64,000 nucleotides of DNA. Origin: Heterotrichella gracilis. Lineage: Eukaryota > Sar > Xanthophyceae > Tribonematales > Xanthonemataceae. How positions within the stretch are numbered: the stretch's first letter is position 1; every line of letters begins with the position of its first letter. This document shows, piece after piece, positions 4,032 through 64,000 of the stretch. The notes beneath the pieces were generated by a model. It made no database searches, was not told where the DNA came from, and saw only the letters and a program-made list of their open reading frames with translations. The stretch is from positions 41,520 through 105,519 of the forward strand of contig JAULBX010011545.1 of the NCBI GenBank assembly GCA_032358255.1, written 5' to 3'. A program made the translations under genes and the position numbers.

Positions 4032-7000
4032 ATGGAAAGCTGGCTTGGAAAAGCTCTCTCAGAGGCCTGGAAAGCAGCGACCATCTGGGACTACGAAGGA
4101 GGGAGCGACGATGACGACCTGGGCGACATGGTGGATATCCAAATCGGAGCATTTCACGACATCACCCCCCGCAGCATGCGCACCCAGCTGTGGCTCTCTG
4201 CCCTGGTGCACCACAAGGGGGTGGGCACCGCCGCTGCACAGGACTACGGGCACTATTTGCGCACGGTAAACCCTAAAACCTAACCCTACGCCCAGCCCAC
4301 CTCCCTGTTTGCTGCAACCCGTCTGTCAAGTGCAACCCAGGTGTTGTTGAGTTGGCTGGTGTGACGCTCACCCCCTCCTCCCTCGTAACTCAGGGCCTGG
4401 TGCCGGAGGTGTTCCAGGAAATAAAGAAGGACATTGATCGGACAGCGGTCTGCAAGCCACACAAATCCAGCACACACAGGTGGGATAAACCCTAAACCCT
4501 AGATCCTGAAGTCACTGTGCACTGCCTTTGTTCAAACCCTACTTCATCCGTTTTGTATTTTTGTGAAGCCTAAACCCTGGAACCCACAGCCTGGCAGCGC
4601 CATACTTGCAAAGCATGCTTGTTGGCCCACTGCACCCTGCGTCCATCTTCCGCAACTGGCCTCGCTGCAAGCTGGCAGTCCTTAAAACCACTGCTTAGGG
4701 TTTAGGGTATGGGATGCTACAGTTGGGGAATCCTGCACCCCCACACAGTGTCTCTGTTGCACAGTGGTGGCTGTTCAGCCCTGTAACCTGGCTCAGCTGT
4801 GCCCCTTGACCAACCCACTTTCATAGCAGACAACCCTGTACAGTTACATATACCATTACAGTAATAGTTTGCCATTCTCTCAAAATCTGCAGCCAAGGCT
4901 ACGACCTATCAAGCAACGAGGGCAAGACAGCGCTGGCACACGTGCTGGCAGCATATGCAGCATACGATACCGAGGTGGGGTACTGCCAGGGCATGAACTT
5001 CCTGGCGGCGCTGCTGCTCAGCTACCTGCCCCAGGTAAGGGTTTAGGGTTTACGGTTTAGGGTGCGTAGGAACTTTCTGGCGGCGCTGCTGCTGCACTAC
5101 ATTTTCCCAGGGATTTCTTGTGGGATCTCCCGGGTGCATTGTTGCTGCCAAGCCATGTACGGTATCTTGATACAGGATCTCGCGGATGCACTGGGTGTAG
5201 ATGGGGTCTAGGTGATCTAATGCAAATGCATCTTTGCTGCCCAAGCCACATGCACATATGAGATATTCCGCATGCGTTCTGAGTGTCTAGCCCGGCGGTA
5301 TATAGAACCTGCATTCTCGCTGGCAAGCCATGCAAAGTATGCGCATTGTTGCTGAGCTGATTGGTGTGCTCCCTCCCCCAGGAGGCGCAGGCCTTTGGTG
5401 CGCTGGTTGTGCTCATGCGCGAGAAGAACCTGCGGGACATGTACAAGACAGACATGGGGCTGCTGCAGGTGCGTGGGCCAGGGGCTTTGGTCAGGGTTTA
5501 AGGTTTTGGTTGGGGGTATGCACAATGTTGCCATGGACATCGCCACTTCTGTGGGTGCAAAAGGTGGGAGCCATTGCAGTACAGTCAGCAACTTTTAGGT
5601 CTTTTATGTTAACATGTTTACAATGGTACTTGTTCGCATGACATATAAGTAAAAAAATAAAAAAGGCATCTCTTATAATGGTGAATAGAACAACGGAAAA
5701 GTATTCAGTGATCAAATGGCAAAAGCCATAAAGTATAACCTCCTCCCCGTAGGTGCGGCTGTGGCAGGTGGGGCGCCTCCTCCCCCCAAAAGTATCACGC
5801 CACCTGGACAACCACGGGGTGCTTTCAGTATTATACGCCTCCTCCTGGCTGCTCACCTGCTTCTCGGCCGACTTCCCGCTCTCCTTTGCTGCACGCGTGA
5901 TGGATGCGGTGCTTACCTCGCCCATGCAGGAGCCAATGATGAAGGTGTGGTGGTGGTGTAGGTGGAGGGGGGGGACAGGTGGGGTTCGTCACATATGGGG
6001 TGCTGGGTGGGGGGGATGTGAAAGGGTGGCTTTGCCGCACGCGTGGTGCATGCGTTGCAGACCCCGTGCATGCAGGAGCCCATGGTGAAAGTAGGTGGGG
6101 TGTGGGTGTGGGTGGAAGAGGGTATGGGGGCTTTCTCTCACACATGGGGTGTCGTGCGTTTCGTGGGATGGGTATGGGGCGGATGCGATGGCTCTTCTGG
6201 AGGAAGCTATGTTCTTACAATCCTTGCCTCCCCTCCCAGGTCTCCATAGCCTATGTTTTAACACCCCTTGCCTCCCCATCCAGGTGTCCATCGCGCTCCT
6301 GCAGCGCTGTGAGTCTGACCTGCTTGAGCTGAATGACATGGAGCACATGGTGGACTATCTGCGCAAGCAGGTGCCCAGGTGGCCCAGGGACAGGCTGCAG
6401 GTGAGGAATCAAACCACATTCAAGCCCATGCGGTGATCGTGGTGGTTTCAGGGGGTTCTGTTTTGGATGAATGCATGGTTGCAGTGGATTGGATGTGTGA
6501 ATGCCCATGTGTCATCTTATGTGGCATGGAGCACATGGGTATGTGTGGTGGATTAGCTGCGCAGGCAGGTGCCCAGGTGGCCTAGGGACAGGCTGCAGGT
6601 AAGGAATTGACCCATATCCCTCACATCAGACAGGGAGACCTACACTAGGCCCTAAAACCCTACACCCTATACCAGACCTACAACAGACCCTACATGAAAC
6701 CCTACTTTTCCTGCGCAGGCGGTGCTTGATGAGAGTCTAGCCACGCCCTGGTCCCCGCGAGAGGTGGCCATCCTACAAGAGGTGGCGGGGGCTGAGTCTG
6801 TGGTTGAGGCGGTGCAAAGGGTCAATGCTGCACAGGCCGGTGGGGCTGTGGGGGGCGTGGAAGTGGGTGGGGAGGAGGGGCAGGTGGCACCGGTGGCTGC
6901 TGTGAAGCCAGTGAGGGTGCCAATGCTGCCGCCGCCGCCCCGCGCGGCGGGGGGCAGTGGTGGGTTGGCGCCTGCGGGCGCTGGTGGGGCGTGGTGGCCC

Positions 7001-9564
7001 AGCACCACATCTGCCATGGGCGGCAGTGAGGTAGGGGCTGGGCTGGGGGGTAAGGTGGGCGTGTGGGGTTTAGGGTATACAAAAGCCATAAACTCTGAAC
7101 CACGTGTGTTGCATCTGCCACAGAGACATTGCAAACGCGAGTCCCAGGCTGCAAAGCATCCCCATACGCCCCATGGCCCTGCTGAGTATTCTAAAACTCT
7201 GAAACCCTAAAAAAGTACTTACGTCGCATGCCCCAGCCCAAAATCTGGCATCCACAGCCGCTGCAAAAGCCCTAATACCCTAGACCTCAACCACCTGCGC
7301 TTGTCTTGTGCAGCAGCAGCCGCAGCGCAGCGGCAGCAGCGACCTGTGGACTGACCTGCTCCGCTGCCCAAACCCTAAACCCTGAAACCCTAGACCATAA
7401 ACCCTCACAGAGCTGGTTGCGCTGCTTATTCCCTGAACCCCAAAACCCTAGACTCTGACCTGTGTTTGCCCCATGCAGCAGCCCCAGCGCAGCGGCGGCA
7501 GCGGCCTGTGGACAGACCTTGTGGCGCGGCTATCGTCGGGTGCCGAGTTGGATAGCCGGGCAGTGGATGGGCCCGCGGGGTCTACTCATGTGGCCGATTT
7601 CTTGGATTTCACATGCCACTCCTCGGGGGTGCGTGACCCGGTTCCATGTGGTCTTGAACCCTTGTCTAGGGTTTATGGGTGGCCTGTGGGGTCCACTTGC
7701 GTGGCTGATTTTCTCGACTTCACCTGCCATTCCTAGGGGGTGCGTGATAGGGTTCCATGTGGTCATGAACCCTTGTCTAGAGTATGAGTGGCCTGTGGGG
7801 TCCATTCATGTGGCTGGACTTCATCTGCCATTTTCCTGGACTTCACCTGCCATTTTTCGGGTGTGCGTTTGGCATTGAAATTGTGGATTTCGGCTGTGGG
7901 ATTTTTTCTTCTTCACCCACCATTCTTCACCAATGGCAAACAGTGTAGATTGTGTTATGTTTTCCTTTATCTGCCCTTTCTGTGGCTATGCCAGAGGATC
8001 AGCCCTCCAGCCCAATGGTCAATGACACCCGCCTTGGCCCTGTTAGTGGAAAAAACATATAATTCTATTTTTTTATACTCTTGTAATACTTTTACCATAC
8101 TGTGTCACTGCTGCAGGACCAGCCCTCCAGCCCCATGGTGGCCGAAGCCCGCCCCGCCCCCTTCCTGCTACACACCTTCGACCCCTTTGGCTGCCTACCC
8201 TCCCAAGGCAGCGGCTCCACCATCTCCGCCATCAGCGAACCACAGCCCGCCACGTCAGCATCCCTCCCCTCGGAACCATCCGGCGCCATCCCCCTTGCGC
8301 CCATCCGCACCAGGGAGTCCCTGCCCAGCACTGCAGCCAGCGCGGTGAGAAGTATGGCGCAAATACTGACAATTAATAATAATACAATATCTTTCTTATA
8401 TTACAATATTTGTGACGAGTGAGTAGTATGGCGCAGTGAGTAGCATGGCGTAACTGGTGGATATTATTGCCATCATTATTATTATTATAATAATAAAGCA
8501 ATCTATCCGACATCACGTTTTCATCTGACAGGTGAGCAGCATGGCGCAAATGCTGCTGACGGGGCTGGAGGGACTGATGATTGACGGGGATTACGAGGCC
8601 GCACAGGATCCCCAGACCTTCAACATCGAGGCGGTGGCCAGGGCGAGCTTTGACTCAGCTGCAGGTAAGATTTGGATAAGATGAGCTTTTAGCTGTAACT
8701 AAAACTGCAAAATAATAATAAATAAAGCTTCTTGCTGTTCCACGCCTTCTGTTCCCAGTTGCAAATTGCACGCTCCTAAATCTTTTTTGCAATCCGCATG
8801 TTTTCCTTCTCCTTGATTTCACAAGCTATCTTCTTTCCCTCTCATCGTGCGCTTCTTTCTCAGGCGCAGAGCTGCGGGTGGGTGGCGGCCAGGGGGCGGA
8901 TTTCTCGTGGGACAAGGGGGACGCGGAATTCGGGGCATTGACGGGGTGCGAGAGTCCCCAGGTAGCCCCCCAGCAGCATGGATGCCTCAATGGGGATCAC
9001 CCCATCCTTTCCAGTCCCCAGTTGCTGGCCATGCTGGACGCGCAGCGGGGCGCCTCAGAAACCCTAAACCCTAACCCCGGCTGCTCGCCATCAGAAACCC
9101 TAAACCCTAAACCCAGCCAGGGTGATGGCGGCAACCTCATCATGTTCTCGCCAGGGGGTAAAATTGGCGGAGGGGATGCCGTGGCGCGCACGCGCCCCAC
9201 CCGCCCTGTTTCGCCTGGCCCTGCGCCAGGTGGCAGCCCCGCAGCCAGCGCAGCCGATGCGCACATGAGCCGCCACCTGGAGGCATTCCGGCGCCACTCG
9301 GACATCACCCCGGCCTCCCGGGGATCCATGCCGATCCCCGACCCGGAATCGCCGTCGGCACCCGGCAGCGTCGGGAGTGTCGGGTCGGCGGCGCGGCGGC
9401 ACACCATCGGCGCTACCAGCGGGGGTGTCCAGGGGTGGGGTGGGGGTGGGGGTGGTGGTGGGGCGCAGGAGGGGAGGGGCGCAAAACTGGGGACGCCCCG
9501 GGAGCGCGAGCCTGACTCCTTTTCTGAGCTGTATATGCAGGCGCGGGTTGCGAAAAGCAAATGA
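4032..9564 (+). CDS. TBC-domain Rab GTPase-activating protein
   Basis: Eleven exons: 4032-4265, 4394-4479, 4893-5034, 5382-5468, 5753-5944, 6284-6400, 6719-7030, 7479-7628, 8117-8344, 8532-8664, 8864-9564 (stop TGA). All join in phase and give 793 residues. The TBC domain covers roughly residues 40-280. Both catalytic fingers are visible: IxxDxxR as IKKDIDR (Arg about 94) and YxQ as GYCQGMNFL (Gln about 139), followed by the alpha-helical part with [20 protein letters not shown]. It is therefore predicted to stimulate GTP hydrolysis by a Rab in membrane traffic. The C-terminal 400 residues are low-complexity (G/P/A/S rich, acidic patches) and match no domain I know. ATG 4032 is the first in-frame ATG of the first exon; an upstream non-ATG extension is possible. 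A second acceptor at 7314 would add or replace a near-duplicate of exon 7479-7628. The intron 5' ends are rich in CCCTAAA/TTTAGGG motifs. Confidence 0.88.
4997..5111. repeat. Ghost of TBC exon 3 donor edge
   Basis: The last roughly 40 bases of exon 4893-5034 (AACTTCCTGGCGGCGCTGCT onward) are repeated at about 5069-5111 inside the next intron with few mismatches. The two copies are separated by 30 bases of TTTAGGG-like repeat. Confidence 0.8.
5886..6290. repeat. Ghost copies flanking TBC intron 5 (donor and acceptor sides)
   Basis: About 6029-6098 repeats the 3' end of exon 5753-5944 (core CATGCAGGAGCC plus donor), in a G-rich context. About 6226-6247 repeats the acceptor of the next exon (CTTGCCTCCCCTCCCAGGT versus CTTGCCTCCCCATCCAGGT at 6268-6286). 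One intron thus carries a decayed copy of both of its own splice boundaries. Confidence 0.75.
6338..6608. repeat. Ghost of TBC exon 6 donor edge
   Basis: About 6524-6606 repeats the exon 6284-6400 3' end including the donor (shared core GGTGCCCAGGTGGCC..AGGGACAGGCTGCAGGT), about 195 bp downstream of the original at 6338-6403. The copy retains a usable GTAAGG donor. Confidence 0.85.
7311..7530. repeat. Duplicated acceptor and exon start in TBC gene
   Basis: 7311-7358 (acceptor CAG, then CAGCCGCAGCGCAGCGGCAG) and 7475-7523 (CAGCCCCAGCGCAGCGGCGG) are near-identical exon beginnings 165 bp apart. Both encode QPQRSG(S/G)SxLWTDL. Only the downstream copy continues as a long open exon; the upstream copy runs into CCCTAAACCCTGAAACCC repeats. 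Confidence 0.85.
7571..7868. repeat. Three tandem ~110-bp units over TBC exon 8 donor
   Basis: Units begin at 7571, 7681 and 7791. Each starts GCC(C/T)G(C/T)GGGGTC and contains a TTCAC(A/C)TGCCA block; the first two also carry GGGGGTGCGTGA donors and an identical ACCCTTGTCTAG tail. The first unit is coding up to 7628; the others lie in the intron. The third unit is truncated and has an internal repeat. Confidence 0.85.
7985..8560. repeat. Ghost acceptors of TBC exons 9 and 10
   Basis: 7989-8022 (ATCAGCCCTCCAGCCCAATGGT) is a decayed copy of the start of exon 8117-8344 (ACCAGCCCTCCAGCCCCATGGT). The start of exon 8532-8664 (GTGAGCAGCATGGCGCAAAT) is echoed at 8345-8363, about 8420-8434 and about 8436-8450. 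An A/T-rich triplet tract (ATT/AAT) lies at 8460-8500. Confidence 0.75.
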
Positions 9565-10534: not shown

Positions 10535-11290
10535 AGCTGCTCTCGGGGGATGACATATTAGCAATGAGGCCGCATTCAACTTGCTCTGCCACCTAATTCA
10601 GATCCTTGCTGTATGCGCTTGGGAGGGGGGGGGGTTCCAAGCCCATTGTGGAACTTCAGTGGAAGCGCTCAGCTGCCATGGTGGAACCATGGTGGAAGCG
10701 CTCAGCTGCCAGAAGACCCACTGGGTAGTCAACCAAAGCAAGGGATGCCATTAAGCCCAGCCCATGCATGCCACCATATGCCACCATATGGGAGGCATCA
10801 TGGCCTAGAACCAGCTGCTCTCGGGGCATCCGGTGTCCGAAATGAGACCGCGCTTCTCGGCCGCCTGCTTCAGGTCCTTGGTGTATGCGCTTGGGAAGGC
10901 TTTGCCCAGCCCGTTGTGGAACTGGTGGTAGCGCTCCGCTGGGTAGAAGGGGAGGGCGGTGGAGTCCACCACGTACACGGTGTTGATGCGGTCGTTCTCG
11001 GTGGGCTTGCCGCCTGTGAACGTGTTGCCGCTGCCGGGGACCAGCTTCATGCCGTTGACGTTGCTGGCCTGCGCGGTGGGGTGCGAGGGGTCAGAGGATG
11101 GAGCCTTGCATGGGTTGCATGTGGCTGTACTGCTGGGACGCATGTAGCTAACTAAGGGTTAATCAAACGACAAGGGGAGATAGGATAGGCATGATGAGGC
11201 GGTAATTGTCGGCGTTTGCCGCATGAACAGGTGTTGCAGCAGCCGAGAACCAGCTTCATGCCATTGACGTTGCTGGCCTGCACAGCAGGG
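10535..11290. repeat. Ghost copies of MsrA last exon
   Basis: 10535-10700 is a decayed copy of 10815-10945 (shared TGCTCTCGGGG, then TGTATGCGCTTGGGA, then CCCATTGTGGAACT versus CCCGTTGTGGAACT). Inside it a GTGGAAGCGCTCAGCTGCCA unit is itself duplicated. 11246-11289 copies the acceptor edge of the same exon at 11040-11085 (ACCAGCTTCATGCC(A/G)TTGACG). Confidence 0.82.
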
Positions 11291-12528
11291 TGCATGTGGT
11301 GAATGAGGGATAGCGCATTGTGGATAGATAAATAGACATTAAAAAGCGCATTGTGGATATTAAAGCACTCAATAGACGCAACACGATACAACACATTTCT
11401 GCCACCTTCAATCTTGCTCTACTCCACAACAATTGTTTTTAGACCCGCGCATTTTTCCATGCTTGCGATTGTCATTTGTGTTTGTAATTGTAACAAACCT
11501 TGATAATGTCCATCATGGGAGAGTCCACGCCACCCGGGATGCCAATCACATTGCGGTATCCCGGCCCCGCATCCTGGGGATCCTGGCGCAGCATCCCGAA
11601 GGGCGTCTTGCGGAACTGGCTGAAGTACACGTCTGCAAACGCCTTCATCTGGCGCTTTGCCTCCGCCATGTCAGCAGCCTTGACATTCAGCTGGACCACC
11701 TCTGCGTGGCCTAGCTTCTCATAGAGGGTGCCCTCAGGGCCGTAGTAGTAGCACACCTTGCCACCAGGACCTGCAAAAATGAAACCATGAATATTTGAAT
11801 GATTGGAGTCATAAGGAAGTGAGCCAGGCTCCCTGAATATGAATGTCCATTACGTTCTTGTAAACCTGGTAAATTGATTGTGGGCCAATTCGAGGTCCTA
11901 ACGCCAGGAGATCTTTATTATATGTAATATACATTGAAGTCGTCCTGCTGGCGCTGCAAGTATAGGGTCGACTGCTGACCTTGCTAGCGAGAATAAAGAA
12001 GTACACATACCGTATATGAGCTGTTAATGAGCAGGCGTGGTGGACACTGAAGAGGGAGCACGACAAGGAAAGAGCATTGCCCTGCTGTCAGTGCCACTAG
12101 GCCTCACACCAGGCCTTCAAAGTAGGCTCCGCACAAGGATTAAATGTCTAATGTCCGGTATCCAGGTGTGTTTTGAAATTGCGTACTACCATATTAAAAA
12201 TGCATATTCATGCATGGCAACGAGCACTGAAGCCTGGCACCCACCTGCTCCATAGCCACCCCCCGCATACCCCACAATCGCAGAAAAGTCCTCTGGAAGC
12301 CTGCCCATGGCAAACTCGGCATCCACGAAGTCCTTCTGCCGCCCCCAGAAGCAGCCGTTGCCAAAGTAGATGGGCATGGCCACCTCCTCAGCACTGGTAG
12401 AAGCTGCTGATGCAGCCGCCTCGGTACTGGCTGGTTCCGCCTCTGCGGATGCGCTCTGGGGCTTGAGGGTGACTGCGGTAATGGTCCATAGGGCTGCAGC
12501 CAGGGCGGCTCGTCGGGAGATGGACTGC
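10805..12528 (-). CDS. MSRA: Peptide methionine-(S)-sulfoxide reductase, predicted thylakoid lumen (5' exon unresolved)
   Basis: Exons in coding order: 12245-12528, 11499-11770 and 10805-11068 (stop TAG). Phases agree. The catalytic Cys lies in GNGCFWGRQKDFVD, followed by IVGYAGGGYG; other family motifs are HAEVVQLNV and ERYHQFHNGLG near the C-terminus. It reduces Met-S-sulfoxide in oxidised proteins. The first resolved exon reads RRQSISRRAALAAALW, then a hydrophobic stretch ending KPQSASA before an Ala/Glu-rich linker. This is a good twin-arginine lumen-transfer domain with an AxA-type cleavage site. In the same frame a stop occurs just upstream of the acceptor at 12529, so the start codon and the stroma-targeting part must be on an upstream exon (probably 12600-12930) that I cannot fix. 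Lumenal location is inference. Confidence 0.85.
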
Positions 12529-14945: not shown

Positions 14946-17900
14946 CAGAGGGTTTAGGTGTAAGGTTTTAGGGTTGTATTACTCACTGAGAGACACACTC
15001 ACTCCTACACACTCCAGGCTGGGAGTAGAAGGTTAGGGTTTGGGGTTTAGGGTTTGTAATACAATTTAGGGTTGTGTGCATCATTAGGGGCAGAGCGTGA
15101 TCATGGGCAGGGGTCAGGGGTTTGGGATGCTCATTCAACATTTGGCGTAGCCAGTGAAATAGGTAGGGCGTTATCAATGGCAGGGTTTAGGGTACTCACT
15201 GGGGGAAAGAGCGGTATCATTGCGCAGGGTATAGGGTTTAAGGTACTCACTGTGAGTAGAGCGGGATCATCGGCAGCGCAGATGAGCAGCATGATTGCCT
15301 GCCAGTGGCAGTTTAGGGTTGATGCTTCAAGGTGTAGGATTCAAGGCTTAGGGTCTAGGGTACTCACTGTGCGTACAGCGGTATCATCGGCAGCGCAGTG
15401 AGGAGCAGAATGAGCGCCTGCCAGTAGCCTTGCATGGAGGTGAGCACGCAGGCCGTGAACACCACAAACAGGATCATGCATGACACCACCGCCTCGAAAG
15501 TGATCTGGAACAGCGCACCACCGGACTCGTAGCTGCGCTCGTAAAAGTACCTGCAGCGCCCAAAAAGGAAAGCGTTATTGCCGCTTTTTCAATTTTTGTT
15601 TTCGTGGCCGGACTCGTAGCTGCTCGTAAAAGTACCCGCGGCATCAAAACGTTAAAACATCATTGGCTTTCTTTTCTACCGTATGTGTCCTTTTCGCGTC
15701 ATCTGGAACAGCATGCCGCCGAACATGTACGGTACGCCGATTATGTACAAGTGCATGCGAGTAGAGGGCACAGCATCCACACTGACTTCATGCTGCCAGC
15801 CCCAGGGGCAACAATATGCGGTAGTGGAGCAAGCACGCTGGCACACGTTCTGCCATCGCCATAACCCTCGTGGCACAAAGGGCAGGCGGTAGCTAGGGTT
15901 GTTAGGGTTTCCACAGGGCGTACAGCTGATGGTGGCTAGGGTTGTTAGGGTTTCTATTAGGACCTTCAGCTGATGGGAGCGATGTTAGGGTTTCATTGGG
16001 GCTAAGCCTTACAGCTGGTGGTAGCGCCACGTGATCCAGGAGGTCATGAAGTAGAATAGGGTGACGGGGAGGATGATGGGCGCAATCACTGCATACGAAA
16101 GCGCAAATATGAAGCCCTGGTATGCCGCGCCGTAGTGGCGGCCGTAGCGGTAGGAGGGCGTGGTGCGGATCATGGCGCGGTCCTTGGCGCTCTTGGGCCC
16201 TGTGGGATTGGGGTTTCGGGTTCAACTCCTTGTGCAGGAAGCAAGCAGAACATCTCTCATACAATAGAAAGCTGTGTAGGTCAACACGAACACATTAACT
16301 GCTTTGTGTGCCCTTCAAAGAGACACATTTGTCCTTTGAATGTGCCCATCAATATGACAAATGTTTCTTCTCAAGGAGACACATTTGCAATGGCATGGCC
16401 TTAGCTTTACCAACATCAGTGCCGAACTTGCAGCAAGCAGAAAGGCATTCGCAGCCATACTTACTGTGTAGGCCAATGGCTCTGAACCCCACAAACAGCA
16501 CAGTTCCATCGTGTGGCCACACAAATCTGAACACATTTGTGAACAGGCCGCGCACCACCAGGGTGTTGATGAAGAAGTTGGATGAGGTGGGGAGAGCGGT
16601 GCCGACCAGCTCAAAGATTTGGCCTGCAGGTTGCAAATGATGTACTTTTAGTCCTTTATAACATGATTACTATGGCAAGGCTTTGATCTAGCAAAGTATT
16701 ACCAACTCCCAGGGACTGGCTGTCAGGGGATGTTTAGGGTTCGAGGTTTAGGGTGTGAAGAAGAAGTTGGCTGAAGTGGGAAGGGCGGTGCCCACCAGCT
16801 TGAGAATTTGGCTGTCAGAGACTGTCTAGGGTGTGCACACCTGGGGATGCGATCGCCGATCCCAGCTGCCATGAGGGAACGAGTTTAGGGTTTAGGGTTT
16901 TTGGTCTAAGGTGTAGGTGCACACCTGGGGATGCGATTGCCGATCCCAGCTGCTGGAAAATGGCCCCGCCCACTGCTGCCAAGATGAATGAGTTGAACAC
17001 ATCGTATACGAAGAACCAGTAGGACACGCGCTGGTCGATCTTGCTCAGGGAGAAGCACCTGCGTGCAAACTGCAGCACACGCACGTGTCGGTATGTCATA
17101 CATATACTTTGAATATTCATACTGAGGGTTGCCGAATTGCCATTGTATGAGTAAGGTGTAAACTACCAATATACTTTATATAATTCATACCGAGGGCTGC
17201 AAAACTGCCATTGTATGGGTTGAAGCTGGTACATGCTTTTTGTAACTGTACTCGTTCCCGCACCTGGACCAGGGAGTACAGCACCATGGGTATGCCACAG
17301 GTCTTATAGTCATGTTTGTAATTGCTCCCTATGTGTTACCTATCATTGTCATCCTGCATGATTGTACATTGCACTTGTTGTGCACCTGAACCATGCAGTA
17401 GACTGGCAGTAGAGCGGCACCTTCCAAGGTGTCATACCCAGGTTTTGAAATTTGCCATTGTGTGCGTAGGCTGTAATTTCCGCACCTGGACCAGGCAGTA
17501 CAGCACCATGGGTATGACACAGGTGCCGAAGCTATGTTCAAAATGCTCTTTATTTTATTTGTTATATATCACTGCAGAAATGCATTTTCCAAATTGTTGA
17601 TTTGCCCCGCACCTGTACCAGGCAGTAGAGCACCATGGGCATCACAAAGGTGTCGTAGAAGGTGCCGATGATCCCCGGGAGGACACCTGTCAGCAGGTCC
17701 TTGACAAGCTCCTGCCAGGGGCTGTTGGACTCGCAGAACCAGGGCCAGTACAGCGAGTTGGTCTCAGGGGTCCCGCCACAGACCGACACCTGGAGGTTGG
17801 TCAGTGCGCCTGCATAAGGGAGAAAAAAATGAACAAGGTACAGTTACAGTTGGGCTACATTATCATTCAGGCAACAAGAGCGTTTTGTTTCTTGAGATCC

Positions 17901-39112: not shown

Positions 39113-42100
39113 TCATCGACGCAGCATCTGAGGCGGGTGGCCATTCAGGGCGTCCTGCCCTGCTGCCATGCCAGGCGGTTGCCTGTCCAACTCATCCGAT
39201 CCATACTCTGCCAGGGTCTGCAACAAGAACAAATACGTAATAAATAAACAATATCAGTACACTTAAAACCCTGGGTGCAGAGGTCTTTCATCTTTACCTG
39301 GTCAAGGTAAAAGTTGCTGCAATATCAGTTGTAATACACCTCACACCGCGCATGAAAACCAATAAAGCATATGCAACTATATGACTGTAAATATAAGATG
39401 ATAACAATATATATTGCAATCATTACTACTGAAATCCCACCTCCAGCAGGGTGACCAGCTGCGTGCTGCTGAAGCTGGGGGTCATGAGCACGTTGTAAAG
39501 CCCACTGTCAAGAGTCTCAATCTTGACATCGGCCTGGCCGCGGCCCTCCATCTTGATGGGCGGGTAGCCGCCGCCGTTGCCCTGCTGAGGGTACCCACCG
39601 CCGTTGCCCATGGGTGGATAGCCACCATTGCCGCCGCCGTTGGCCATTGGCATGGGCCGGTTGTTGGTCAGCTGCACGTTCTGGGCCTCCAGGCGAATGG
39701 AGTTCTCCTGCAAGAGGGTGGAAAGGTGTGATAGGGCTGTGGCATGGCCTTGAGCATGGCAGGCGTGTCATGCCATAACTGCTTGGCACAAGCTGCGCAA
39801 GGGGTCGCTACTAAGCCGGCTGCACTGCTGCAACGCAAGTGATTTTCAACTGGGACCATATTTGCCAGCCCTGGGGCCCTGCCGCTGCAGCTACATGCCA
39901 TGCCCCTCCAAGATATTGTAACTTGCAAGTACCTTGTAGTGCAGCCATCTGTTCCTCCACTTGCTTGGCAAAGTCTACTCAATAAATTCCCATTAATTTT
40001 GGTTTTGAAACTATTTTCCCATTCCAAGCGCACCTTCGCCAGCCCGCTCTCCTCCATGAGCTTGGCAAAGTCCATGGAGTTGACAAACTCCAGCGACTTG
40101 CTGCCCTCGCTCAGCAGCTTGTGCAGCAGCTTGCGGTGCTGCTCAGTAAAGCTGCTGCTGGTGCGCATGGCGGTGCCCGGACCACCACCGCCACCACCAC
40201 CGCCACGCCACATGGCCGACCCTGGGTAGCCCTGCATGCCGTTGTTCCCCTGTGGCTGCAATCCCGGGGGGTAGCCCTGCGCGTTGGCGTTGGCTTGCGC
40301 GCGTGCCTGCGCTTGGGCGTGGGCGTGTGCCTGGGCTTGGGCGTGTGCCTGCTGCGCTTGAGCTTGGGCCTGCTGTGCCTGCTGCTGCTGCTGCTGCTGG
40401 GCATACTGCGCGTGCGCGTCCTCCTGGTGCTGGTCCAGGTTGCCTGCAAGGGGGTGAATGGTAAGGGGTTGGATTCGCGAGACAAATTTTACATTGCACC
40501 TTTTTTCTTTCGACATACTTGCACACGGCTGCGCCAGCAGCTCCTGCTTTGATCCACATGAGCACTTCCATCCCTAAACCCTAAACATTAGACACAATAC
40601 CCTAAACATGCACTTGGCTGCGCCAGCAGCTCCTGATTGAGCCACCTGAGCACCTCCATCCATAAACCCTAAGCCTTAAACCCTAGACAAAACCCTACAC
40701 ACTTACTTGGCTGCGCCAGCAGCTCCTGCTTGAGCCACATGAGCACGTCGTCCCCGCCCACAGTCTCCTGCGTGGACAGGTCGATCATGCAGGCCCCCAG
40801 CTGGTCGCGCGTGGCGGGCGGGCCATCATCCACGCAGATCTGGAGCGGTCCCCCCATCAGGTTGATCTCCTCGGCAAGCGCTTGCTCCTGGGAGCTCAGC
40901 GCCTCCTGCAGCACAATGGGTACACAGTATGATTAGTACTAATACGTAGTGGGCAAACCCCAAACCCTAACATGAACCCTACACCCTCAACGTACAGGAT
41001 ATGCGGGGGCACAACCCATCAACCCACAATTGATGGATAAATTACATATGTTCTAGTGTATACAGCCGGACCAGCACGTGGCGGTCATGCACACGTGAGC
41101 CTGTGGCGGCAGGCTGTGGAAGGGTACTTATTGCCTGCCCTTTCCGCGTCAGCCATCACCAACTGAAAGAGTGGGTGCGGCATGCGCCACAATATTACTG
41201 CAATTTTTGGCATGTTGTAGATATGCAGGGCATTCCCTGGTGGTTCAACCCCCCTGTAGCGATGCATATGGTATGGCAATTTCACATATGAATAGATGCT
41301 CGATTGCCAAATATACTCCCTGTACAGCCACCGCCCCCAACCCCCACACCCACCTTGTATACCCGGAACATCACGGGGTTGAGGTTCTCCCCATTCTGGT
41401 GGCCCTCAGGCTGCTGCCCAGGCGGGTACATCCTGCCCCGCGAGCGGTTGAGGTAGTTGGGGTTGGCGGGCGGCAGCTCCACGTGCTGGTGCATGAATGG
41501 CGAGGGCCGCTTTGACCCCATGAGCGCCGCCCGCAGGGAGCCTGGCGGGGCGGACTGCGTGGCTTGGGGCTGCGAGTATTGGGGCTGGGGCGGGCGGGCC
41601 TGCGCGGCGGGCTGCTCATACCCCTGCCCGGGCCGGGGGTGCTGGCCGGTGATGGGGCGGCCCTGGTAGGTGCGCACGTGCGGTGGGGGGCGGAGGGTGT
41701 GCAGCTGCCCCCCTTGCTGGCCCCCCGTGCTGGTCTCGGGCCCCTGCCACGACGCGGAGGACTGCGGCGGCGAGCGCACGTGCTGCGCGTGGTCCCTCCG
41801 CCACCTGGGTTCCCCCTGGGGCTGCGAGTGCGACTGTTCCTGGCGGTGCTTCTCCACAGCCAGGGCGTCCATCTGCCTGCGCTGGTGGATGGCCTCGTGC
41901 TGGTTGGCCAGCCACTCCCGCTGCTCGCGCTCCCACTCCGCCCGCTGGTGGCTGGTGCGCTGCTCGGCTGCGGCTGCCGCCACCGGGGCGGGGTCCTCCA
42001 CGCCGGCCCAGTTGCCCTGCCGCTGCATTCCCATCCCGCCCATTTGGGACATGCTGCGGGGCCGAGGGGCGGCCTGGGGCTGCTGCGGGGGCCCCTGGTT

Positions 42101-45284: not shown

Positions 45285-46851
45285 ATGGTAAGGGCTGTCG
45301 TGAGAATCGTTTCGTTGTCAACGTACTTATGTGACCAGTGCAACCCATTTCCCCGTCTAACTTGGCTGTCCAATACAGGCGCTGGAAGACTGGTACAAGC
45401 AGGTAAACACTGGCCTTTGTTATTGTATATGCATGCATTGTGGATTAGTTTTTTCTGTGAAACTAATATCTGCTTGGCTGCAGCTTCCTATTGTGACTCG
45501 GCTGTATGTGACGCTGTCTGTACTGACTACAGCAGCGTGTGCTCTGGAGGTGAGCACCATTGCCAAACCATTTGCCGTTTGTGACTCATCAAGAGAGTAA
45601 GGTGGTGACATGTACGAACGGGTTCCCGCAGATCATCACGCCATACAACATCTACTTCAACGCACGAGCAATACAGAAAGGAGAAGTATGGAGACTGTTC
45701 ACCAATTTCCTCTTCTTTGGCAACCTTGGTGAGGACCGTTGCCTTACTGTCAGTTCTCAATGCATTGCTGCTTGTTCCCACCTGCTTGCTTGCACACGAT
45801 CAGGGCACAGGCAACACAGACAGCATGTGAGTGAGGTAAAGAGTAATGGTTGTTTGCAGGGTTGGACCTTGTGTTCCATATGTTCTTCCTGGTCCGCTAC
45901 TCCAAAGCCCTAGAGGAGGGCTCGTTCAGGGGTCGGAGTGCTGACTTCTTGTGGATGCTCTTGTTTGGTGCGCACGTCGCTTCTACCCTCCTGCTTGCCA
46001 CTATGCGTTGCGGTCGTCATAGGCACATGAGCACTGTTAACCTGGGACCTGCTTTTGTTGCAGGCGGCGTTGTGCTGACGTGCACAGCACCCTTTGTGAA
46101 CGTGCCATACCTTGGCTCAGCACTGACGACCATGATGGTGAGTGATTGGACCGCTGCTGCCTATGCTTGTGGGTTTCTTGGTATCAGGAGTGTAATAGAC
46201 TCTTGTGTACCGCCAAACACTGGTCTTTTTGGTATAGGGCTGCTGTTGCCTGTAAGGGTTGTGTGCAGTTTGCTTGAATTGCTTTATTGTAATCCACAGG
46301 TATATGTATGGGGCAGGCGGCACCCGTACGTCAACCTGAGCTTCCTGGGGATATTCAACTTCACTGCGCCGTACCTACCGTGGGTGCTCCTGGGTCTGTC
46401 GCTCATCTTGAACGGCAACCCAGTCATAGACTTCTTGGGCATGGCAGCAGGTATGCCCCCCAAACTCATACTGTTGGCGACTACTCTGTGCCTCATTTGC
46501 ACCGATTATGGACGTCTTGCTGCAGTATAAGGCAGTTATGACTGGTTCGCCAGACTTCCACAAGTCAGTAGCTACAGCAACCTTGCGACGTTCAATAGGC
46601 TAGCGGCTGCACCCTAAACCCTGGTGTCCTACCTGCACAAGGCACCACCCTTGCACACGTGTGTCAATCCCGCTTGTTTCCAACCTACAGGTCACTTGTA
46701 CTACTTCCTGGAGGATGTGTACCCCAGGATCACAGGTAGGCGGCCCCTCAAAACGCCCGGCTTCCTCAAGGCGCTGTTTCCAGCAGAGGAGATTGCGCGG
46801 CCAAACTTGGACCTGCTGCAGCAGCAGCAACAGCAGGCGCAGCTCATGTAG
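45285..46851 (+). CDS. DERL: Derlin (DER1-like ERAD membrane protein)
   Basis: Eight exons: 45285-45287 (ATG only), 45379-45402, 45484-45549, 45632-45728, 45860-45967, 46064-46137, 46300-46450, 46691-46851 (TAG). Phases close; 227 residues. Rhomboid-pseudoprotease signs are LPIVTRLYVTLSVLTTAAC (TM1), the WR motif in KGEVWRLFTNFLFFG, FLWMLLFG, TTMMVYVWGRRHPYVNLSFL, and GMAAGHLYYFLEDVYPRITG near the C-terminus. It retrotranslocates misfolded ER proteins with Cdc48/p97 (family knowledge). The initiation codon is the last codon of its exon, cut off from ALEDWYKQLP by a 91-base intron. The C-terminus has a Gln run. No ghosts in its introns; a single CCCTAAACCC lies at 46613-46622. Confidence 0.92.
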
Positions 46852-48236
46852 TGGGCAGCAAACAGGGGCATGGGAAAAGCAGCAGCAGCAGTGCAGGCCA
46901 CGTGGAGCACAACAGGCAGGGGCATGGAATTGGGATTGGCAGCAAAAATAGCCCAGCACTTGTGCTGCGCGGCAGACATTGGCAGCGGGCACAGCTCAGT
47001 TATTGTGCATAAAGCAGGGGCATGGGATTGCAGCAGCAGCAGGCACGGCGCATGTATAGTACCCAACACACAGGGGCAAAAGATGGCATTGGCCGCTGGC
47101 CATCCGATTGGCAGCCAGTGCCAGTGGTCAACTTGTTAGCGCAGCATCTGTACCACACACCTGGGGCGGCACACATATTGGGCGGTGTATTTCAAGAAGC
47201 CTAGTGTGCAGCTTCACCACCAGACAAAAATACTGCAGCCTGGCAGCAAACATAGATTATTGCGTCCTGGGTTTTGGGTCCAACACTGAACTTGCACTGG
47301 AAGCCGTTTGGATTTTTGTACAGCAGGGCAAGCACGATGTAGTCTTGCCAAATCACTTGATGCTCTTAGCGATATTGTCGACATGAAGTATGCACGGTGG
47401 TGGATATCACATATACTATAAGTGTCTACATACCGTACTGGCAGTCACTTCGCACCATTTCACACAGCAGTTTACTACGTTCGGCACGGTGTGTCAAGAA
47501 TATGACATCTTCTCGGTTCAAAATTCGCCGTAAAATTGAGTCTCACGTGCATGCAGTGTACAAGCAGCCCGGTTTCAGTCGAAGGTGTCACATGCATGCA
47601 TTCACTGAGTCGTGGCATGCCATTGGGATGCCCGACGTAGAATGCCCTGCATGCATAGAATTTGCGGTGCTGGCTTGCTGTGCCACCTCTGTAGCAGGTT
47701 AGCCACGGTATGTTGGGCGTTGGCTTCGACTTACACCCCACATACGCCCCCAGTCACGTGTGCTGCCAGACACTGGAGTAATTGTCATGGCATGCCCAGC
47801 AGGTGGCTCGCTCGGCCAAAGTGTGCGCCCTGATATATCACGTGATAGGTCTTTATAATCGCACTGTAACCCGCTTCGTTATGCAGCAGGCACCTGGTAC
47901 TTCAGTGTTTGGCCTGTAAGAAATTCGCCCAGAAACATCTTTGGGACATGAGCAGTGAAAACGCCTGAAGGGCAGCAGATACCAACCGAATCCACCTTGT
48001 ATTCGTGCACTTGACGCAGACACTGTGTTCAAGTTCTCCACTTTTTGTTGCTTCTGTGCCTGTGGGCGCATCGCCCAAGCGGTGGTGTGCATTAAAGGCG
48101 CCTGCCCGCTGGGTTAGGGTTGGCGTGGTGTGCAAACGATGGCAAGCACGGTTGTGCCATAAGCCCGGTATCCTGTGAAAGGCCGATTGTGCACTTCAGA
48201 CACGCACCCTCCGTCACAAGGGGGCGGACGGAGGCT
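46852..48236. other. Derlin 3' flank and AGA upstream region
   Basis: 46852-47080 contains imperfect repeats of CAGGGGCATGG(A/G)A plus CAGCAGCAG; probably the Derlin 3' UTR. The remainder should hold the AGA promoter. No gene recognised. Confidence 0.45.
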
Positions 48237-51200
48237 ATGGCGGGAGCGTTCTGGGTAGTGTGCCTGGTTGCGCTGTGGTTGCCAGATGCCGTCCCCGCCA
48301 AAGGAGTTGCCCCAATAGTTGTCAACACCTGGGCGTTCACCAGGGCCACGCAGAGGGCATGGGAGGAGCTGGACAGACCAACCTCGGACACACCTGCCCT
48401 GGATGCCGTGGAACAGGTGGGTGCAGGTGCCTGTGACCCAGGGACCCATCAGGGTATGTGGGTGCCTACTACTGCCAAATGGACACACTATAGGGCGCAG
48501 GCTTGGCTCCACATCAGGGTACCAGGGTTTGAGCGTGGTTTTTGGGCAGCCGGCTGTTCATGCCCTTTGGTTGCAGCCTGCCTTGGCTGCTTGAAAGACT
48601 ATTATCTCTACTTTCTTTTAGGGTTTCATAAATCTTCACACATACTTGCCACCCAGGGCTGCGCCCAGTGCCTACTCTGTCCACTGACTGCACACAAACT
48701 TGCCACCCAGGGCTGCGCTCAATGCGAGAAGGACCAGTGCGACCTCACAGTGGGATATGGAGGGTCCCCAGACGAAGAAAGCGAGACAACCCTCGATGCG
48801 CTCATCATGGACGGGGTGCGTCTAACCTACCTTCCCGTACCTCTTTTGCAACCGCACCCTGGCAGGGGTTGAGTCGAGTGGACGCCTCACAACCAGTGCC
48901 AGGCATCCTGGCACCCCAGGAGCTGTGCGTAGTGGGCAGGGCATGCTTTAAAAGTGTACTATTGCAGCCTGGCTCAGAGGTTTTCTAATTGCAGACAACT
49001 TTCAACGTGGGGGCAGTGGGCGACCTGCGGCATGTCAAGGATGCCATCCGCACCGCACGCCTGGTGCTGGAGCACACGCGGCACACCCTGCTGGTGGGCT
49101 TGCAAGCCACCCAGTTTGCGGTGCTGATGGGCGTGGGGCTGGCCAACCTGTCAACCCCGGAGAGCTCCAAAATCTACTATGACTGGTGCGTTGGGTACAG
49201 CACACGCAGGTTGTGCGCAAAACACAGTGGGAACTGCATCGCTGGGGGATGCAGGGCTAGCACAACTGCTGCCGCATGCACTGGTTGCCATGTGTGCACA
49301 CCGCCTGCAGTCACCAAATGGTCATGTAGTCACCAGTTGCTCATGCAGTCGCCAGTAGAACCCTAAATCCTAAACCCTAAAGATGTCACCAGCATGCTCA
49401 TGTAGTCACCAGATGCTCATATAGTCGCCAGAAGAACCCTAAATCCTAAACCCTAAAGATGTCACCAGCATGCTCGTGTGGTCACCAGATGCTCATATAG
49501 TCGCCAGTAGAACCCTACACCCTAAACTCTAAAGATGTCACCAGCATGCTCGTGTAGTCACCAGATGCGCATATTCTTTGTGCAGGAGGGATAACCACTG
49601 CCAGCCAAATTTCTGGGTGGGCGTGACCCCCGACCCCACACGGTATTGTGGTCCCTACAAGCCCAGTGGGGCATCCCAGGGCCAGGGTGCAGACACTGCT
49701 CAGTATAAAATAAACCAGGATGCTGGGGGTGCATCTGGCGAGAATGGCGGGGACATGCAGGGTGACAGCAGTGACCCAGGATACCGGAGACAGCTGGCAG
49801 GTGAGAAACCCTTGCATTACCCTAGCAAAACCCTGCAGATGATGGAAACCCTAGCAGTGCCCTAGCAGTTTCCTGCCTAGCAATGTTGGAGCGCTAGTGC
49901 TAGGCAGGGACTGTGAAATTGGAATGTGGATTTGGTATGCGGATTGTGAGCTCCAAAGCACCTGGGCTTCCTAGATAGATACCCCTACAAAATTACCCTA
50001 TGGATGACGCTATTGTACCACCTGGCAGGTGTGGCTGTAAGCCTTGGAGCAGTTCTCACTTTAAATAATCCCTTGTTCTCTTTATTTCTTACAGAAACAG
50101 CAAATGGAGGAAGTGGTGTGGACATGCGGGATACGGAAAGCAGAGATGCCGGGGTGCAGAGCTTGCGGGGCATGGATGCCAGCCACGTCCAGTGGGCCAG
50201 CCAAAGCAACCACGACACTATTTCCATGGTTGCTATTGATGCAGAGGGCAACATCGCGGCTGGGTGCTCCACCAATGGGGCAAGCCACAAGGTGCGGTGT
50301 GGCAAAGGGTGTAGGGTTTGGGGTTTAGAGCTCCACCAATGGGGCTAGCCACAAGGTGCGGCGTGGTGTAGGGTTTAGGGTGTCACATCAGCGCCCATGT
50401 CACATGAAAGGTGATTAGCCACATTGTGGCCGGCTGCGATGTGCAAATAAATTATGGATAATGAAAATATAAACCAGAATAAATCGGCGAATAGGAGTAA
50501 TTAGGTAGTTTGTCCTTGAAAAGGCGCGGTGGTTACAGACGGGGAGTTTGCAAAGAGAACGACGTTGCCATCCAGTCTACGTTGGAGGAGTGTAGGCATT
50601 GCCCCATCACAGCCTAAATCCTTAACCCTAAACCCTGAACGCCGGAGGAGCGTAGGCATTGCAGCCGATCGCAATGTGGCTAACCAGCGCCCATGCGACA
50701 TGTGCATGCCGTGTTCATTGATCTTGGCCTGATAGGCACAGGCTGTGCCACAGGTAATCATCAATCAACATGGGCAAGTACATGTCGCGTGGTCGCTGTT
50801 TTACCACATTGCAGCCTGCTGATGCCACTACCGTACCGGGGGTATATATTTTATTGAATTATATTCAATTATTTTGGTTCCATATAAGCTAAGAAATTGA
50901 TGCACTGGGCACCACAAAAAGTTAAAAACTCCTCGAAATGTCAAATTTGGTCAAATTTGTCCAGATTTGGGGGTTTAGGCTCGGTTTTGCCCGGTTTAGG
51001 CACTATTTTGACCCTCACAAAATTCCGGAAATTCGGCCTTCGGCCTCCACAAAATGTTAAAAAATTCCCCGAAATGCTTCGGGGCCCTCCACAAAAGTTT
51101 AGTTTCACAAAATATATACCCCCGGTACGGTATTGAAGCCAATGAAATCCCTTCTGCCCCTGCCAGGTGCCACATGTGCAGGCCATGAACTCCAAAACCC

Positions 51201-53160: not shown

Positions 53161-53310
53161 TTGTCAGGTTTTTCAACCCCGGTATTCTCCCATACCGCAG
53201 TTCTCCTAGAGGGCCATCTCCACTTGCCGCTGCAGGTCATCAAGATCGTCAGGCTTTTCGACCCCAGTTCCTCCCATCCGCAGATCTCCTAGGGGCCAGA
53301 GCAGCAAGCT
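53161..53310. repeat. Tandem duplication in 5' part of the unrecognised gene
   Basis: 53163-53216 (GTCAGGTTTTTCAACCCCGG onward) and 53246-53300 (GTCAGGCTTTTCGACCCCAG onward) match over about 54 bases, including CCGCAG(T/A)TCTCCTAG(A/G)GGCCA; probably a duplicated splice acceptor. Confidence 0.8.
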
Positions 53311-53429
53311 ATTATGTCCGTTTCCGTGTGTCATCTGTCAACGGCCCACCGTGCCCGAAAGCAGGGTACCGCCTCAGCAGGTGTCTGCATGGTCGCAAGG
53401 TCTGGTCCAGGATTTAGCAGGATGCCAAC

Positions 53430-54707
53430 GCCGAGAAACAAACAGTCGACGTTGATCCGTTCATCCACCAGCGGCTTACAGTTACTGGTGAGTGCTTTTT
53501 CGTGGCTCACCAGTCCTGCCAAGTGACATGATAGTTTTCCCTACATGGTAGGTTTGTGCTGGTTGTTTGTTGCCCATGCTCCCCTTCGCAGGCGGACAAG
53601 TACTTGCCCAATGCACCTCTCGTAGAGACTCTCCGCGACAGTTGTTATGATGCCTTTGCTGCGACTGCAGCTTCTGTTCCCGTGTGGAAGCGGGTAGCTT
53701 CATATCTTGCGTGTGGCGTTGGAGCCTTTTCGCCATGGTGCTGATCCCAGGTTTCGTGGAGTTGCCATTTTTGCAGCAGGTAACCCTCATACTTACCTTA
53801 TGCCTGGGATTGGCCCCTGAACCGAGGGAATGGTTTTCCCTCGTCCTTTTCCCTCTGTCACCCTGCACGTTTCAGCAAGGGGTTTAACCTACTAGTTTCA
53901 GCTGAACGCTCTGTTTGCTTTGTTGCAAAGCAGGTTGCAGCCAGTGGGGGAGGGATGGCTGCTGTGGTGGTGCTGGTGGCCACTGTGGAGACCTGGCAAA
54001 AAAGCTGGCAAGACGCACGGGTGGAAAAGGGGTTCAACGTTGCAGCAGGCATCCTGACTGACATCCTGACTAACGAGCGGGCCATTTTGGGAAGTCCTTG
54101 TCGTTATACCGCATGTCTTTCGTCTCAACAATGCCAGTGCCCTGCACCAACTCTGCACCAAGTTGGCTGTCATGTTGCACATGGCATGGTATTTGTGTAT
54201 GTTAGTCCCTTCTGAACCACGCTGTGTGGAGGTTGTGTTCCCCAAGGCTGCCAATATCAGGTTTGTGGTGGGGTGTGCGTGCTGTTTGCAGGTGTTCATC
54301 TATGAGGACCTTTTCATTCTGTTTAAAAACAAATGTCCAAGTATTTGTATTTTCCCCTGCAGGTGTTCATCTACGAGGACCTTTCCAATTCATTTTAAAC
54401 GTTGTCCAGTTAATCTTTTTTATTTGCCCTGCAGGTGTTCATTTATGAGGAACAGGCGCTCATCACAGCCCTCACCAAGTCTGTGAGGGAGCTGGCGCAG
54501 GGTAGTGCGGACAGCACCATGGCCCTACCTGGCTACGTGCTGGAAGGACTGCCATCCAGCAAGGGCATCACACCCAACCGCAACCTGGGTTCGGTGGAGA
54601 TGGAGCTGCTGGATGGGCGCCGGTGTGAGGTTGAGGGATGGACTGCCGACGTGGGCGATACCCTGGAGGATGTGAAGGCGATCCACATCCACATGACCAG
54701 GCAGTAG
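53430..54707 (+). CDS. Unrecognised protein, multi-exon (model incomplete)
   Basis: Likely exons: about 53430-53489 (reads DANAEKQTVDVDPFIHQRLT or, in another frame, MPTPRNKQSTL), about 53592-53700 (ADKYLPNAPLVETLRDSCYD onward), a short exon near 53750-53778, about 53932-54090 (VAASGGGMAAVVVLVATVET, then WQKSWQDARVEKGFNVAAGI) and the final exon 54435-54707 (VFIYEEQALITALTKSVREL, ending HIHMTRQ, stop TAG). The frames are protein-like and splice signals are good, but phases between the first three exons do not all close, so at least one boundary is wrong. One possible membrane segment lies in GGGMAAVVVLVATV. I do not recognise the family and infer no function. Confidence 0.5.
54285..54455. repeat. 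Three tandem copies of the last-exon acceptor
   Basis: TGCAGGTGTTCAT(C/T)TA(T/C)GAGGA occurs at about 54288, 54358 and 54431 (period about 70 bp). Only the third copy opens into the coding exon; the first two run into A/T-rich sequence after about 25 bases. Confidence 0.93.
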
Positions 54708-63840: not shown

Positions 63841-64000
63841 TCATAGTTAGTTACTTAGTTACATGCATTCCAGCAAAATAGCCAGATTAGCAGTCAGTCT
63901 TGCACATGCGGCGCCACGCAGCGCTTTCCTGGCACTGTTTGAACCATCTATTGATCCCACGCGACTTGAGGTCCTGCTGGAGTAGGTCAGCCCACGTGGC
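63841..64000 (-). mobile_element. 3' end of a non-LTR retrotransposon (LINE)
   Basis: Reading the minus strand from 64000, an open frame gives ATWADLLQQDLKSRGINRWF, then KQCQESAAWRRMCKTDC and TAA at 63887. The pattern TW..L..DLK..GI..W......WR is the usual C-terminus of LINE ORF2 (after the RT domain). A short GTAACTAAGTAACTAAC tandem tail follows at 63844-63863, as at many LINE 3' ends. The element body lies to the right of the window. Confidence 0.75.

Follow-up and report, generated by a model that had tools for sequence, protein, structure and literature searches.

Spaced copies of exon edges in introns of Heterotrichella gracilis, anchored at splice sites and often joined by telomere-like filler

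About one in eight splice edges sampled from the genome assembly of Heterotrichella gracilis (117 of 920) has a copy of itself on the intron side, mostly separated from the original by unrelated, often telomere-like sequence. The copies were noticed in a 64-kb window of contig JAULBX010011545.1 (C117:41520-105519; the window is this whole stretch of DNA), for which a first-pass annotation, made from the sequence alone, had described introns carrying extra copies of the flanking exon edges. From the sequence patterns presented below, the copies are interpreted as probable scars of recurrent breaks, concentrated where exons meet introns, whose repair duplicated the flank and added filler, so that one working edge is left. 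The probability of this reading is estimated at roughly 0.55.

Sampled DNA and Gene Models

The sampled DNA comprised the window and, taken from other contigs, 28 stretches of 10 kb each (labelled L004, L005 etc.), 344 kb in total, or 0.5% of the assembly (68.5 Mb, 903 contigs). Genes were predicted ab initio with a self-trained, both-strand hidden Markov gene finder, and the exon edges are predictions without RNA support. The models over the 344 kb included 62 genes and 553 introns, with a median exon of 130 bp, a median intron of 270 bp, and the splice consensus AG/GTGAG at donors and TGCAG/G at acceptors (slash, splice site). A copy was sometimes miscalled as a mini-exon (e.g., at 20780-20827 of the window), and a few of the 24 copy-bearing window edges are double counts. 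Copy pairs were chosen by the identity of their exon part, as a choice by overall identity would favour short intronic parts; this selection brought out a class of plain tandem pairs. The BLAST detection is blind to repeats of 4-12 bp.

Occurrence of Exon-Edge Copies

Self-BLAST of the sampled DNA returned 181 direct pairs at offsets of at most 1000 bp, versus none in one Markov-1 simulated set. Exactly one copy was coding in 104 of these pairs, both copies in 48 (often because the gene finder read the copy as a mini-exon), and neither in 29. A splice edge was touched by 100 of the 104 pairs with one coding copy, and 103 of the 110 edge contacts faced the intron holding the copy, in agreement with the predominantly intron-side position described earlier. 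Both kinds of splice site were affected, as had been claimed: copies were found at 66 of 458 donors and 51 of 462 acceptors, and the 117 edges correspond to about 106 physically distinct pairs. The rate was similar inside the window (24/180 edges) and outside it (93/740), varied strongly among loci (chi-square 105, 27 df), and changed little when exons shorter than 60 bp were dropped (108/874 edges). Start and stop codon edges had an outward copy in 2 of 55 cases versus the 117/920 splice edges (p = 0.053).

The presence of own exon-edge copies in introns is thus confirmed: the listed cases were recovered by self-BLAST, and such copies also occur beyond the window. The case named at 21711-21770 as about 97% identical was found as 21604-21664 versus 21709-21769, at 96.7%. 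From such values the identity runs down to the detection limit, which bears out the reported grading to barely visible similarity.

Structure of the Copy Pairs

The duplicated stretch, hereafter X, consists of part of the exon and the splice signal. At 80 of the 117 edges, more than 20 bp lie between the copies (spaced pairs), and at the remaining 37 the copies abut or form arrays (plain pairs). Spaced duplications are more frequent than tandem ones. The local tandem duplication originally proposed fits the 37 plain edges, where the copies abut as such duplication implies, but not the 80 spaced ones, where sequence beyond the copy is moreover unrelated in young pairs. In the spaced pairs, X has a median of 67.5 bp, of which 51.5 bp are exon.

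The ends of X are sharp in young pairs (at least 86% identity; 18 donors and 8 acceptors). Their exon identity is about 0.93; at donors identity drops to 0.26-0.43 beyond +6, and at acceptors it is 0.15-0.42 beyond 10 nt upstream of the splice site. The flanks beyond X are near random, with a mean identity of 0.553 versus 0.520 for random pairs (29 pairs). In the pair 21604-21664 / 21709-21769, two differences were counted in 61 bp, and nothing is visibly common past either end. The seven most alike pairs (94.6-97.3%) are all spaced, by 44-265 bp. A direct repeat with sharp ends around an unrelated insert, the arrangement expected from repair of a staggered break, was observed in the pairs of at least 86% identity and is less clear in older ones.

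The offsets of edge pairs range from 64 to 448 bp, only 2 of 117 exceeding 330 bp, and those of all local pairs have modes near 100-118 and 190-210 bp. A floor is seen near 60 bp, with 1 of 233 BLAST offsets below it; TRF detected ten arrays with periods of 40-59 and many shorter ones.

Filler Sequence

The telomere at contig ends is (TTTAGGG)n. In a set of 66 spacers longer than 10 bp, taken from 87 pairs, telomere hexamers (TTAGGG/CCCTAA) reached 7.15 per kb, versus 1.98 per kb in introns. At least one hexamer was present in 27 of the 66 spacers, whereas matched segments of all introns gave a mean of 6.8 and a maximum of 14 in 500 draws; the expectation was 14.5 for segments drawn from copy-bearing introns and 5.3 for those from other introns. 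Among the 80 spaced pairs, 13 had a hexamer within 25 nt of X on the filler side and 2 had one within that distance past the copy, so the filler looks new and the sequence past the copy resembles old intron. The filler at L014:1049 is almost entirely degenerate telomere repeat. Spacer arrays are degenerate relative to the species telomere TTTAGGG, and 39 of the 66 spacers have no hexamer. In acceptor-side filler, 2 TTAGGG and 19 CCCTAA were counted, a direction that would fit the extension of a broken 3' end on this side only.

Telomere-like sequence is also raised at the ends of introns in which no copy was detected. In 301 copy-free introns of at least 200 bp, telomere-like 10-mers made up about 2.0% of the first 40 nt at the donor versus 0.6% deeper, with a weaker rise at the acceptor end (1.3-1.6% versus 0.75-0.96%). 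On the sense strand of introns, CCCTAA is the preferred orientation at acceptors. Across loci, the copy rate tracks the telomere-hexamer density of introns (rho 0.76).

Inserts at preferred sites flanked by direct repeats resemble target-site duplications, as a mobile element or introner inserting at splice sites would produce. Four copy-rich stretches (6.5, 0.6, 2.1, and 1.4 kb) compared with the whole assembly nevertheless returned themselves, simple repeats, and exon-like matches; the search, which skips simple and very common words, revealed neither a filler family nor a near-identical second copy of the genes. Two dispersed repeats of the third stretch (L004:4918-5064 and L004:5562-5700) lie outside fillers. 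Since no genome-wide repeated insert appeared for these four stretches, although dispersed repeats do turn up in the same search and served as positive controls, an origin in a mobile element was rejected as extremely improbable. The earlier statement that no standard element behaves in this way holds insofar as the four filler-rich stretches yielded no repeat family; as a statement about processes it does not, staggered-break repeats and telomere insertion having already been described.

Placement Relative to Splice Sites

For comparison with chance, coding-compatible duplications with sizes taken from the detected edge pairs were placed uniformly on the same annotation. Noncoding sequence then decayed neutrally and coding sequence slowly, with small indels, and detection used the same BLAST settings as for the real data. 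Among spaced pairs, 80 were at edges and 7 were noncoding only (92% edge), versus 411 and 1150 in the simulation (26%); among plain pairs, the corresponding counts were 37 and 6 (86%) versus 541 and 867 (38%). The observed noncoding clusters leave out pairs overlapping a known copy, and with the least favourable count, which includes all 29 noncoding pairs, 117 of 146 pairs (80%) are still at edges.

The intronic ends of X cluster at splice sites. In 48 of the 80 spaced pairs (60%), this end lies at most 14 nt from the splice site, versus 20.7% in the simulation (p = 2e-14). The same holds for 12 of 20 pairs in the youngest spaced class (15.8% in the matching simulated subset, p = 1e-4), for 39 of 60 spaced pairs outside the window, and, when ends of less than 5 nt are removed because the simulation disallowed them, for 31 of 63 pairs (14.9% simulated, p = 1e-10). 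A cruder rigid-slide control concurs, with 44 of 52 at edges versus 40%. The proposed anchoring of the duplications at splice junctions therefore exceeds chance in the neutral simulation, and random placement was not found in the 344-kb scan. Anchoring is a strong tendency rather than a rule.

These comparisons bear directly on the possibility that local tandem duplications arise at random, that exonic ones are purged, and that intronic ones decay twice as fast, so that those spanning an edge stay visible. Such a process would accommodate the 37 plain or arrayed copies, in which the divergence of the exon part (0.135) and the intron part (0.155) is about as expected, as well as the longer intronic matches of older pairs. 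The simulated edge shares and end positions fall far from those observed, the 80% share persists under the least favourable count, and the intronic flank is near random in young spaced pairs. Simple random tandem duplication is largely refuted by the neutral simulation, and the explanation as a whole is unlikely.

Another account starts from old plain tandems in which gene conversion overwrites the exon part while the intronic part drifts, so that X comes to end at the splice site. It is consistent with the young pairs, where the end of X roughly coincides with the limit of purifying selection on the functional copy. Intronic divergence, however, is only 1.15-1.39 times the exonic one in plain pairs and in those spaced pairs whose intronic match exceeds 20 nt; the exonic part is not specially preserved, and neither faster intron decay nor exon protection explains why X stops at the splice site. 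The most alike pairs, being all spaced, include no plain tandem as the needed starting state, and the telomere-like filler is mainly one-sided. Gene conversion is accordingly regarded as rather improbable.

A possible role of G-runs was also considered. The trinucleotide GGG after X was not clearly enriched relative to copy-free edges, either in donor filler (0.58 versus 0.46) or in acceptor filler (0.51 versus 0.59), and this hypothesis was dropped.

Decay of the Copies and Intron Length

The extra edges decay, as had been supposed. In-frame stops numbered 21 in the copies versus 16 in simulated neutral sequences, and indels were frameshifting in 29 cases and in-frame in 5. The splice dinucleotide was retained to within 2 nt in 31 of 39 donor copies (GT) and 21 of 32 acceptor copies (AG). 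This retention, together with a synonymous share of differences above the neutral value, would suit copies that are in use as alternative exon ends or as decoy splice sites under selection. The stops at about the neutral rate, the excess of frameshifts, and the fading of similarity to the detection limit argue against it. With the reading frame not kept, functional alternative exons were rejected as a class, though single copies may differ; use of the copies is quite improbable as a general explanation.

Introns with copies are longer, with a median of 433 bp (65 introns) versus 252 bp in those without (488 introns), and this accords with the suggested lengthening of introns. When the farthest copy and its spacer are subtracted, the median of the copy-bearing introns becomes 251 bp. 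The match of 251 to 252 bp is a prediction of growth by such events; a bias towards longer introns, which have more room for a copy, could give part of it.

The copies might instead be relics of intron birth through a duplicated exonic AGGT segment. Two introns, L005:6193-6451 and L007:7316-7532, end at an acceptor in a 93% copy of the upstream exon end, versus none in 20 shuffles at 80% identity or more. Both lie within multi-copy arrays and may be choices of the gene finder, and for 83 of 87 copies the distance to the far splice site exceeds 15 nt. An intron consisting of one repeat unit with duplicated splice signals was found in only 2 of 553 cases, and intron birth was set aside as a very improbable general account.

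Proposed Mechanism

Under the preferred reading of repaired breaks, the DNA beside a splice site would be broken, with the ends long-staggered or resected. Both sides would be copied by fill-in of the overhangs and then rejoined, usually with new filler F, often a degenerate telomere repeat. U-X-R would thereby become U-X-F-X-R, with X duplicated around F. One exon edge would stay intact, and splicing would remove the spare copy and the filler together with the original start of the intron. The event would thus be nearly silent and the intron longer; the spare copy would decay afterwards. The trigger would be breaks rather than another copying process, the filler would derive from telomerase or a telomere-like template, and the exon-proximal copy would be the one spliced. 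The junction itself may be a hot spot through transcription, splicing, or chromatin, with transcription or splicing stress and exon-positioned nucleosomes as candidates.

Several observations weigh against this reading. The events are read from the standing sequence of one assembly, and none was seen happening. The start and stop codon control edges differ from splice edges only weakly, so that this comparison is no more than suggestive. Older donors match deeper into the intron, with identities of 0.52-0.69 from +6 to +30 (76-86% class; 12 donors and 17 acceptors), and the intronic match exceeds 20 nt in 24 of the 80 spaced pairs. A generic staggered-break model predicts no offset floor, yet hardly any BLAST offset is shorter than 60 bp. 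Donor-side filler contains 12 TTAGGG and 15 CCCTAA, a poor fit to the extension of exon-borne 3' ends, and the orientation bias at acceptors could reflect selection against AG near acceptors. More than half of the spacers (the 39 of 66 noted above) lack the hexamer, and telomere-like motifs might be retained near intron ends for splicing. The synonymous share of edge-copy differences is 257/559, versus 0.33 expected under neutrality and 0.38 with a threefold exon rate; codon bias of exons may explain part of this excess, and some copies may once have been coding.

Comparison with Described Processes

Intron lengthening is usually ascribed to transposons and random insertions. Patch-mediated duplications in rice, reportedly described by Vaughn and Bennetzen in 2014, are said to be local duplications formed by fill-in of overhangs before joining. 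Statements below on published papers refer to the excerpts available of each, except where a search is named.

New introns of Daphnia have internal direct repeats attributed to staggered breaks, with passive lengthening proposed, and 33 exon-derived repeats of 4-12 bp were reported (PMC4202315). The present copies are similar in that direct repeats lie within introns or at their ends and exon ends are copied into introns. They differ from the 4-12 bp repeats of new Daphnia introns in their size of 30-100 bp (median 67.5 bp in spaced pairs), their occurrence at both donors and acceptors, their anchoring at splice sites, and their telomere-like filler (PMC4202315). The repeats described by Rogers and Bendich measure 4-30 bp, are shared by the two ends of a single intron, and were read as traces of intron insertion (PMC11782384). 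Repeats near splice sites, taken as scars of break repair, are common to both cases; here, unlike there, the intron contains a copy of one of its own exon edges (PMC11782384).

In mammals, breaks can receive telomere repeats, and some of these insertions come with a duplicated flank from a staggered break and with random filler (PMC2246262, PMC7215372). Such duplication concerns a minority of loci (6/130 in rodents, 4/25 in primates, and 3/66 in the horse), and the intronic share of human telomere-repeat insertions fits random placement (PMC2246262, PMC7215372). The sequences in H. gracilis, by contrast, lie next to splice sites, and their arrays are degenerate.

Fill-in of break ends by CST-Pol alpha-primase leads to small tandem duplications, which resemble the proposed events in being local and in the filling of both overhangs before joining (PMC8355091). 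In H. gracilis, unlike in those duplications, filler lies between the copies of most pairs and very few offsets fall below 60 bp; a term search of that paper found no mention of splice sites (PMC8355091). Intron gain by tandem genomic duplication creates new introns from AGGT (reviewed in PMC3443670). It shares with the present case duplicated exon sequence with splice signals, whereas here introns are lengthened and at most 2 of 553 fit a birth (PMC3443670). The excerpts of the Asterochloris and Auxenochlorella genome papers mention no such copies (PMC6652019, PMC12636532). In the open-licence literature, covered by titles and abstract openings and with subscription papers outside the scope, no splice-anchored exon-edge copies of 30-100 bp were reported. 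Staggered-break repeats and telomere insertion are therefore known, and the size of 30-100 bp, the anchoring, and the frequency look new.

Copies Listed in the Window

Among ten protein pieces, eight matched Pfam (OSCA-type RSN1_7TM, TBC, Redoxin, RBM22-like STL11, MYB, DER1, and asparaginase). The gene names used in the first-pass annotation thus gained Pfam support for TBC, OSCA, MYB, and asparaginase (AGA), and weakly for MsrA, while the GT61-like and LRR-like pieces had no Pfam match at 1e-4. A homologue search with the OSCA protein gave no match at 1e-30, and scans of the window with Rfam (gathering scores) and ARAGORN were empty. The copies listed in the window are as follows.

1185..1260 (-), donor edge 1225 of the GT61-like gene; copy 1037-1115, spacer 69, exon part 94% identical
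5884..5972 (+), donor edge 5944 of the TBC gene; copy 6030-6122, spacer 57
6348..6409 (+), donor edge 6400 of the TBC gene; copy 6546-6607, spacer 136, in-frame stop in the copy
7475..7519 (+), acceptor edge 7492 of the TBC gene; copy 7313-7357, telomere-like repeats in the spacer
7570..7745 (+), donor edge 7628 of the TBC gene; tandem array copy 7681-7868
10981..11084 (-), acceptor edge 11068 of the MsrA gene; copy 11192-11293, spacer 107
15349..15428 (-), donor edge 15367; copy 15232-15309, spacer 39 with CCCTAAA-like filler
16560..16623 (-), acceptor edge of the OSCA gene; copy 16750-16812, spacer 126
16917..16953 (-), donor edge 16924 of the OSCA gene; copy 16833-16869 (97%), 47-bp spacer containing CCCTAAACCCTAAA
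17607..17658 (-), donor edge 17612 of the OSCA gene; copies 17480-17531 and 17257-17302
18281..18360 (-), donor edge 18330 of the OSCA gene; copies across 17958-18186
18469..18562 (-), acceptor edge 18533 of the OSCA gene; copy 18645-18740, spacer 82
19127..19199 (-), acceptor edge 19177 of the OSCA gene; copy 19261-19333, spacer 61
19779..19840 (-), donor edge 19800 of the OSCA gene; copy 19580-19641, spacer 137 with telomere-like filler
21009..21085 (-), donor edge 21016 of the OSCA gene; copies 20772-20848 (96%) and 20559-20627 (80%)
21604..21664 (-), acceptor edge 21659 of the OSCA gene; copy 21709-21769 (96.7%), 44-bp AT-rich spacer, sharp ends
22859..22913 (-), acceptor edge 22906 of the OSCA gene; copy 23052-23107, spacer 138
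33403..33492 (+), donor edge 33445 of the LRR-like gene; near-tandem copy 33504-33599
40709..40749 (-), donor edge 40706 of the MYB gene; copies in 40517-40656 and 40527-40568, telomere-like filler between
46831..46924 (+), donor edge 46847 of the DER1 gene; copy 46983-47078, spacer 58
50266..50317 (+), donor edge 50291 of the asparaginase (AGA) gene; copy 50330-50381, spacer 12
54358..54451 (+), acceptor edge 54434 of the gene at 53-54.7 kb; tandem copy 54287-54379

The last MsrA exon has a weak (72%) copy beyond its stop codon (10535-10675 / 10813-10941); among 55 gene ends, it is one of two with a copy of this kind. In the asparaginase gene, a 75-bp minisatellite (49310-49574), the unit of which includes CCCTAAATCCTAAACCCTAAA, lies in a predicted intron.

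Other Repeats and Assembly Features

A dispersed element of 115-120 bp, SINE- or MITE-like, occurs twice in the window (35544-35657 on the plus strand and 63855-63974 on the minus strand; about 78-82% alike) and matches at least 39 other places in the assembly. The window also contains, at 55021-55309, an imperfect palindrome with 69% self-complementarity over about 290 bp. Outside the window, a SINE-like dispersed repeat of about 165 bp was found by a TTA run in a predicted intron (L016:708-879), with at least about 40 matches of 80-98%. The dispersed repeats at L004:4918-5064 and L004:5562-5700 measure about 140-147 bp, are 74-99% alike, occur on many contigs, and lie close to fillers; a sequence of 103 bp (L007:8799-8901) has one 95% match, on contig C20. 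One stretch (L008, contig C100), with 35% GC and long intronless ORFs of bacterial type, looks bacterial, and the assembly seems to include bacterial contamination.

Implications for Intron Growth

A specific, datable, splice-anchored, and probably nearly silent mutation touches about one in eight of the sampled splice edges. Gene predictors may misread the copies as mini-exons. If the anchoring is mutational, the link between splicing or transcription and breakage would be testable from sequence, the copies would provide a clock for intron growth, and the spare splice sites could seed alternative splicing. A broader and distinctly more tentative possibility is that junctions in this lineage are break hot spots, owing to transcription, splicing, or exon-positioned nucleosomes, and that telomerase-assisted repair of long overhangs is what chiefly makes introns grow. 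An exon edge of 30-100 bp would then be copied in each event, together with its splice signal, and filler added, and the introns might be seen as layered fossils of their own borders.

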